In this document: positions 21,906 through 23,842 of the stretch, one piece after another
Numbering within the stretch: position 1 is the first letter of the stretch
Layout of the letters: each line of letters begins with the position of its first letter
Assembly: GCA_028821395.1 (NCBI GenBank)
Contig: JAPPGP010000119.1
Coordinates: 1-64,000 of the forward strand
Direction of reading: 5' to 3'
DNA: 64,000 nt
Source of the DNA: Defluviicoccus sp.
GTDB taxonomy: Bacteria; Pseudomonadota; Alphaproteobacteria; MPNO01
Program-made: the position numbers and the translations under genes
Notes under the pieces: model-generated
Told to the model about the DNA's origin: nothing
The model's input: only the letters and a program-made list of their open reading frames with translations
The model's database searches: none

Positions 21906-22157
21906 ATGACCAAGACCGCCAAGCTGTTTTGGAACGGGAGATCCCAGGCCGTGCGGCTCCCCAAGGAATTCCGCATGCCGGGCAAGGAGGTCCGGATTCG
22001 CCGCCAGGGCGCGGCGGTCGTGCTCGAGCCGATCTCGGACGGCTGGGAGTGGCTCGATGAAATCCAGGGCAAGATGTCCGAAGATTTCTTCGCCGAAGGC
22101 CGCAACCAGCCACCGATGCCGCCGCCGCGGCCGGGCCTCGACGACGCATTCGAATGA
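21906..22157 (+). CDS. vapB: VapB-type antitoxin (AbrB/SpoVT fold)
   Basis: TKTAKLFWNGRSQAVRLPKEFRMPGKEVRIRRQG. Confidence 0.92.
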   Translation: MTKTAKLFWNGRSQAVRLPKEFRMPGKEVRIRRQGAAVVLEPISDGWEWLDEIQGKMSEDFFAEGRNQPPMPPPRPGLDDAFE

Positions 22158-22567
22158 TGCGCTACCTGCTGGACACCAATGCCTGCATCGCGCTCCTCAA
22201 CGCCAGCTCCCGCAGCCTCTCCGCGCGGGCGCGACGCCACGGCGCGGAGGAGATCGGGCTCCCCGCCCCGGTGGCGTTCGAGCTCTACTACGGCGCCTTC
22301 AAGAGCCGCGAGGAAAACCGGAATCTCGGCCATCTCGACCGGATCGCGTTCGAGATCGTCCCGTTCGACGCGGCCGACGCGCGCGCGGCGGGCGCGATCC
22401 GCTGCGACCTCGAGGCCCGCGGGCTGCCGATCGGCCCCTATGACGCGCTGATCGCCGGCCAGGCCCGGGCGCGCGACCTGGTGCTGGTCACCGCCAATAC
22501 GCGCGAATTCCAACGGGTGGACGGGCTGAAGCTCGAGGATTGGTCGACCCCCCTGTCGCAGGGCTGA
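22154..22567 (+). CDS. vapC: VapC-type PIN-domain ribonuclease toxin
   Basis: RYLLDTNACIALLN, PVAFELYYGAFKS, GPYDALIAGQARARDLVLVTANTREF; 4-bp overlap with vapB. Confidence 0.93.
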   Translation: MMRYLLDTNACIALLNASSRSLSARARRHGAEEIGLPAPVAFELYYGAFKSREENRNLGHLDRIAFEIVPFDAADARAAGAIRCDLEARGLPIGPYDALIAGQARARDLVLVTANTREFQRVDGLKLEDWSTPLSQG

Positions 22568-22652
22568 TCGGCCGCTCCCGCCGCGCCAACTTGCCGGTTG
22601 GCCGGGAGGGGCCGAGCGGCGATAATCCGGGCGCCCACACGAGGATCGCGCC

Positions 22653-23297
22653 ATGCCCAATATCCGCATGCTCGACATCGAGGAGCTCAAGGCGGGCAAG
22701 CTCCGCCCGCTGGTCAACAAGGCGCTGCGCCACCGCGCGCCCGACCCCGCCTTCCACGCCATGCTGGGCCACAGCCCGGACATCGCGAGGTCGATGTATC
22801 TTGCCTGGGGCGCGGTGTTCAACACCGGGCGGATCGACCACAAGCTCAAGGAAGTCATTCGCGTCCAGCTCTCGCGGATGGCCGCGTGCCGCTATTGAGG
22901 CAACGTCCGGTCTGCTTCGGCGAAGCAGCAGGGACTGACGGAAGAGACCATCGACGAGGGCATCGAGGCCCATGCTTCAAGCGAGCGCTTCACCCCGGCG
23001 GAGAAGGTGGCGCTGCGCTACTCCGAGCTGATGGGGACCGCGCCGGACAAGGTCGACGCCGCCCTCTACGCGGAGCTCGCGGAACACTACTCGGTGGAGG
23101 AGATCGTCGAGCTCGGCGCCTTCGTCGGCTTCAATGTCGGCTACCACACCTTCTTCGGGACGCTCGACTTCTACCCGATGTTCACGCCCGACGGTCGGCT
23201 GGTCGACCAGGCGGAGTCACGCCGGATCTACGGCGAGACCCCGGTCTCGCTCAACAAGGGCGCAATGGCCCGCGCGACCGGAGAAGCCGCCGAATGA
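22653..23297 (+). CDS. Carboxymuconolactone decarboxylase/AhpD-like protein, candidate selenoprotein (CxxU; in-frame TGA at 22896-22898)
   Basis: The two listed ORFs 22653-22898 and 23007-23297 share a frame, which stays open on both sides of a single TGA. Read through: ...VIRVQLSRMAACRY[U]GNVRSASAKQQGLTEETIDEGI...; the TGA falls at the second Cys of the family CxxC motif. Hairpin follows at 22912-22928. Confidence 0.8.
22912..22928 (+). promoter_or_regulatory. Candidate bacterial SECIS element
   Basis: CTGCTTC-GGC-GAAGCAG, perfect 7-bp stem with GGC loop, 13-nt spacer after the TGA, first loop G 21 nt past the TGA. Confidence 0.65.
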
Positions 23298-23842
23298 GCC
23301 TCCGCGGCACGCTCCCGCCCGTGCCCCGCGCGGCGATCGACGATTCGAAGCTCCAGGCGCTGATTGCGCGCTCCGAAGAGACCGGCATCGCGGATTCACG
23401 CTTCGTCCGGCTGCTCGCGCATGTGCCGGGCTATGCCGAGGCGCTGCACGATGCGCTCGACCGCTCGCTGATGGAGGGCGAGGTCGACCACAGGCTCAAG
23501 GAGATCGTCCGCGTCCAGCTCGCCCGGCTCGCCGGCGATCCCTATTTTTCCGCCTTCCGCTCGAAGCGGGCGCTGGAGGACGGGCTCACCGAGGAGCGGA
23601 TCGAGGCGGGTTGCGGCGATTTCGAGACCGACGCGCGCTTCACCCCCGCCGAAAAATGGGCGCTCCGCTATGGCTGGCTGATGTACCGCGCGCCGCAAAG
23701 GGTCGACAAGGCGTTCTACGACGAGGGCAAGACGCATTACTCCGAGGCCCAGATCGTCGAGCTCGGCGCCTTCATCGCCTTCCACTACGGCATGCAGATC
23801 TTTCTCGGCACCTTGGACCTGCCCGAAGAAGAAATTGGCTGA
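23294..23842 (+). CDS. Carboxymuconolactone decarboxylase family protein lacking the CxxC motif
   Basis: LKEIVRVQLARLAGDPYFSAFRSKRALEDGLTEERIEAG...ARFTPAEKWALRYGWLM aligns with the upstream gene. ATGA overlap with it. Confidence 0.85.
   Translation: MSLRGTLPPVPRAAIDDSKLQALIARSEETGIADSRFVRLLAHVPGYAEALHDALDRSLMEGEVDHRLKEIVRVQLARLAGDPYFSAFRSKRALEDGLTEERIEAGCGDFETDARFTPAEKWALRYGWLMYRAPQRVDKAFYDEGKTHYSEAQIVELGAFIAFHYGMQIFLGTLDLPEEEIG

Follow-up and report, generated by a model that had tools for sequence, protein, structure and literature searches.

The window analysed in this study is a stretch of 64,000 nucleotides from a Defluviicoccus sp. genome (GCA_028821395.1; contig JAPPGP010000119.1, positions 1 to 64,000). 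On its forward strand, the open reading frames at 22653-22898 and 23007-23297 share one frame and are parted only by the TGA at 22896-22898, and the coordinates given for them in a preliminary description, which had proposed that this TGA encodes selenocysteine (Sec), were right. Translation with TGA as Sec yields the predicted product of 214 residues from a single gene of 214 codons (22653-23297, here called the Sec gene), which is assigned to the CMD/AhpD superfamily by its match to PF02627 and is conserved in 31 distinct homologues. The TGA is codon 82 and, as had been noticed, occupies the second position of a CxxC-type motif, CRYU at residues 79-82, within ...MAACRY-U-GNVRSASAKQQGL..., where it aligns with Cys133 of AhpD and Cys51 of PA0269. 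The first cysteine of the motif, Cys79 (22887-22889), aligns with AhpD Cys130 and PA0269 Cys48, and 12 residues ahead of it stands an invariant Glu67 (22851-22853), like AhpD Glu118 and PA0269 Glu36. The Sec gene terminates at a TGA (23295-23297) and overlaps, through an intact ATGA at 23294-23297, a second gene on the same strand (23294-23842) that encodes a CMD paralogue of 182 aa (PF02627 26.2 bits, cut-off 23), here called the partner.

The TGA is kept wherever the family was found. It is present at codon 82 in all four congeners, which are MAGs labelled Defluviicoccus, and thus in five of five species when the window is included; the congener proteins are 93-96% identical end to end, without indels, and no further disruption was seen among them. 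Downstream of the TGA, 57 of the 69 variable columns in the congeners are third-codon positions, the pattern expected of translated sequence. A scan of genome contigs returned 25 loci, 25 of them with TGA at codon 82, and together with profile searches it brought the family to 31 distinct members, of which all 31 carry the TGA and none has a Cys form of this codon. Their hosts are the genus of the window, another member of the Rhodospirillales, Nitrospinota, Acidimicrobiia, SAR324 and one groundwater betaproteobacterium. The Sec gene is nearly general in the Nitrospinota group (17/18 genomes), and it was found in 4 of 296 sampled genomes of the class Acidimicrobiia, in 1 of 52 SAR324 genomes, and in 1 of 399 genomes sampled from the phylum of the window; this one is the window's own genome, the gene being rare elsewhere in that phylum. 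Among the matches listed in a plasmid search there were distant CMD proteins only (≤31% identity), and our literature search returned no paper joining selenoproteins with Nitrospinota.

Exchange of Cys and Sec at one column is a classical mark of selenoproteins. The sister clades of the family (about 75-115 bits) have either TGC/TGT, coding for Cys, or TGA at the residue-82 column and, the partner clade aside, no other residue there; outside the family, the tree shows several switches between Sec and Cys. One of the sister clades, in the Acidimicrobiia (L125-L128, L131, L135), carries a CxYU-G motif and a 7-bp hairpin of its own with a GGC loop, CUGUCCA-GGC-UGGACAG, and is placed near clades with Cys at the same position, so that Sec/Cys exchanges occur within a single class.

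The search for a SECIS element after the TGA, which had been suggested as a check, revealed a hairpin of the bacterial type at the predicted place. This element, CUGCUUC-GGC-GAAGCAG, lies on the + strand at 22912-22928 and consists of a 7-bp stem and a GGC loop (22919-22921), 20 nt after the UGA, with a predicted folding energy of -15.9 kcal/mol. The bSECIS model, as quoted in a recent review, has an apical loop of 3-9 nt with G in its first two positions, an upper stem of 4-16 bp, a spacing of 16-37 nt and a minimum free energy of -7.5 kcal/mol or below (PMC13188914), and the hairpin falls within each of these ranges. Its folding energy is not unusual for the GC content (z -0.87), and the case for it rests therefore on conservation and covariation. 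Among the congeners, codons 83-103 vary in only 1 of 21 degenerate codons, whereas in codons 104-214 the figure is 58 of 108 (Fisher p = 1.8e-5), indicating that a constraint beyond the protein acts on this segment. The core GCU UCG GCG AAG is invariant in the aligned members at protein identities down to 64%, and one pair covaries within the family (UA/CG). Across the TGA-bearing subfamilies, compensatory changes occur in 6 of the 7 pairs and 95.9% of cells pair, giving a covariation score that was reached by 0 of 500 shuffles. An Rfam scan of 22600-23300 gave neither a SECIS family nor any other credible match.

The genome also encodes what would be needed to insert Sec. All four components named for a search in the preliminary description were found, namely a tRNA-Sec with anticodon UCA (selC; contig C236), selA (565 bits) and selB (463 bits) side by side on contig C71, and selD (311 bits) on contig C62. 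In many relatives selA, selB and tRNA-Sec are together on one contig. Seventeen other host genomes were searched for SelB, which scored above its cut-off in 14; of the remaining three MAGs, whose assemblies may be incomplete, one has a partial SelB-like match and two have none. One congener (G004) has two high-scoring tRNA-Sec genes (C38:7876-7967 and C313:8569-8659; 75.7 and 78.4 bits), the one on C313 confirmed as UCA, and either duplication or contamination could account for the pair.

Could the TGA be something other than a Sec codon? If it were a nonsense mutation or a sequencing error, the two open reading frames would be remnants or separate proteins, and it is true that an open frame of 132 codons after the TGA is not very rare in a single genome at 70% GC (P about 0.08, from composition alone). 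However, the read-through frame is more than chance because the TGA is kept, substitutions are biased to third positions and there are no indels; this bias holds on both sides of the TGA, the catalytic residues are invariant, and a sequencing error is out because codon 82 is TGA in each of 31 distinct sequences, whose protein identity goes down to 64%. The pseudogene reading is thus hardly conceivable, and we consider pseudogene, sequencing error and ordinary stop to be excluded for codon 82. Read-through of UGA by other means, either as Trp or by leaky termination, is very improbable as well. The evidence for Sec as the inserted residue is indirect, but the Sec gene itself ends in TGA, so that UGA is a stop elsewhere, the sister clades carry Cys and never Trp at this column, and a SECIS-like hairpin is present with the full Sec machinery. 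Taken from the sequences compared, 22653-23297 is almost certainly one intact selenoprotein gene with Sec at codon 82, and the earlier prediction that the TGA encodes Sec is supported by the conserved TGA, the Cys/TGA sisters, the hairpin and the machinery.

With regard to the protein, its match to the Pfam CMD family PF02627 (39.6 bits, cut-off 23) and its predicted structure, obtained with moderate confidence (pLDDT 77.7), which resembles AhpD-like structures including PA0269 and Bmp8, indicate that it is a member of the AhpD/CMD superfamily. No family in NCBIfam 20.0 matches it above the family's cut-off; the nearest model, NF053654 (GroundWater_YciW, YciW-related (seleno)protein), scores 65.7 bits over residues 34-161 against a cut-off of 310 and represents a relative. 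The best sequence match in the PDB is the debrominase Bmp8 (6OHI; 45.2 bits), with PA0269 at 44.7 bits. The site of P. aeruginosa PA0269 consists of Glu36, Cys48, Tyr50, Cys51 and His55; in M. tuberculosis AhpD the residues are Glu118, Cys130, His132, Cys133 and His137 (PMC3141380). Glu67, Cys79, Tyr81, Sec82 and Arg86 of this family are spaced like the PA0269 site and agree with it at four positions, counting Sec for Cys. The CMD fold is common to the three proteins, and the Glu-(12)-Cys-x-Tyr-Cys geometry of PA0269 is kept. The Sec protein differs in having Sec in place of Cys133/Cys51 and Arg in place of His137/His55, in its longer termini relative to PA0269, and in being paired with a redox-dead paralogue. 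The AhpD proton relay (Glu, Cys, His/Tyr, Cys, His) ends in a histidine, where all aligned members of the family have Arg86; the relay is thus incomplete, and peroxidase activity is not assured.

For the gene that follows, the preliminary description was correct about the ATGA junction but missed that the gene encodes a paralogue lacking the active site, that it is a constant companion and that in one lineage it is fused to the Sec gene. In the window, the partner has Asp at the column of Cys79 and Phe at that of Sec82, while it keeps the equivalents of Glu67, Tyr81 and Arg86; across the family, the Cys of the site is replaced in partners by Asp and the Sec by Phe or Ser. In 30 loci the sequence suffices to test for a partner, and in all 30 it comes directly after the Sec gene; the 31st is cut by a contig end. 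In a SAR324 genome (L078) the two are fused in one frame of 426 residues. The partner clade forms one side of a tree branch with an SH-aLRT of 99 and is therefore not a recent duplicate. Beyond the pair, the neighbourhoods share no pathway and contain no conserved gene that points to a substrate: in the window the neighbours are a molybdopterin dehydrogenase large subunit and hydantoinase B, in Nitrospinota an FAA hydrolase and an aminotransferase, and in other hosts a K+ transporter or another molybdopterin oxidoreductase. Just upstream in the window, at 21906-22567, two small overlapping genes would, from their translations, encode an antitoxin and a PIN-domain toxin of the VapBC type.

The constant pairing and the SAR324 fusion make it likely that the Sec subunit and the redox-dead subunit form a heteromer, a reading of the gene arrangement that we hold to be rather probable. 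It is less probable, yet deserves serious consideration, that the Sec subunit acts alone and that the paralogue is an independent protein which has remained its neighbour since an old tandem duplication. CMD proteins are usually homo-oligomers, either trimers or hexamers (PMC3141380), and the catalytic site is contained within one chain; on the other hand, the paralogue stays beside the Sec gene across phyla, in every locus that could be tested, while other neighbours vary, it lies on its own side of the branch rather than being a recent duplicate, and it is fused in SAR324. As to the chemistry, the enzyme might be a selenium-dependent reductive dehalogenase, like Bmp8, instead of a peroxidase-type enzyme. 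Bmp8 leads the PDB sequence matches and is one of the best fold matches, has a CxYC motif and is of similar length. The sponge Aplysina aerophoba is known for its brominated alkaloids. Our literature search returned a single paper joining Defluviicoccus with selenocysteine, a binning study on this sponge, and it is a guess that a congener MAG derives from the sponge. However, Bmp8 is only 20-22% identical, it is without Sec and its pattern of His residues after the motif differs, and the other hosts, including those of groundwater and other MAGs, have no evident link to sponges. A dehalogenase is possible but not favoured because PA0269 scores almost the same as Bmp8, and we rate it as improbable.

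We propose instead that the locus is a two-gene redox module formed by the Sec subunit and its paralogue. SelB with Sec-tRNA(UCA), guided by the hairpin about 20 nt past the UGA, would insert Sec at codon 82. The selenol of Sec82, amid Glu67, Tyr81 and Arg86, may then attack a substrate in its oxidised state, for which a hydroperoxide or an oxidised partner of the peroxiredoxin type is the most likely candidate. Cys79 could serve as the resolving thiol to give a selenenylsulfide intermediate, and a thiol or a dihydrolipoyl donor would reduce this again, as happens in AhpD. The partner, being without redox residues, would probably be a structural or substrate-binding subunit of the heteromer. 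We see evenly balanced prospects for peroxidase-type chemistry.

Selenoproteins of the AhpD/CMD type with a CxxU motif are not new, as the preliminary description had stated. Data from the Sargasso Sea yielded them in 2005 (PMC1088965) and the GOS metagenomes in 2008 (PMC2398784), and a 2026 review covers them (PMC13188914). As far as the available portions of these accounts go, the published forms share with the Sec gene PF02627, Sec at the second motif position and a hairpin after the UGA. They differ in that the published families have Cys homologues, whereas for the family of the Sec gene none was found and a redox-dead partner always follows; neither the absence of a Cys form nor the constant partner is mentioned in those portions (PMC1088965, PMC2398784, PMC13188914). 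Overlap with the four Sargasso sequences termed 'CMD domain-containing' is possible. What is new beyond the Sec call is the constant paralogue with Asp and Phe/Ser, together with the SAR324 fusion. We lean slightly towards an obligate heteromeric CMD selenoenzyme, present in several phyla, that combines a Cys/Sec subunit for which no Cys form was found with a dedicated pseudoenzyme, fused to it in SAR324. The lack of Cys versions suggests that the chemistry of the family is not well supported by Cys. Because standard gene calling splits the Sec gene, the annotation of the MAGs labelled Defluviicoccus, and of almost every genome sampled in the Nitrospinota group (17/18), probably lacks a conserved selenoenzyme or shows it truncated. 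Moreover, with the constant pairing and the natural fusion, the dependence of a selenoenzyme on a pseudoenzyme subunit could here be put to a direct test.

Other CMD genes with in-frame TGA codons were seen along the way. The genome of the window has a second one (G000 C102, TGA at about 1772; L156), with a CPFU motif and a predicted hairpin, that probably encodes another selenoprotein, judging from these features. In some Nitrospinota, a further CxxU-type CMD protein (CPHU-VDLHSARSL or similar) is encoded a few kb from the pair, at about 7638-8072 in L074, about 8224-8619 in L076 and about 9666-10064 in L079, with the hairpin GCGCGGA-GUC-UCCGCGC.
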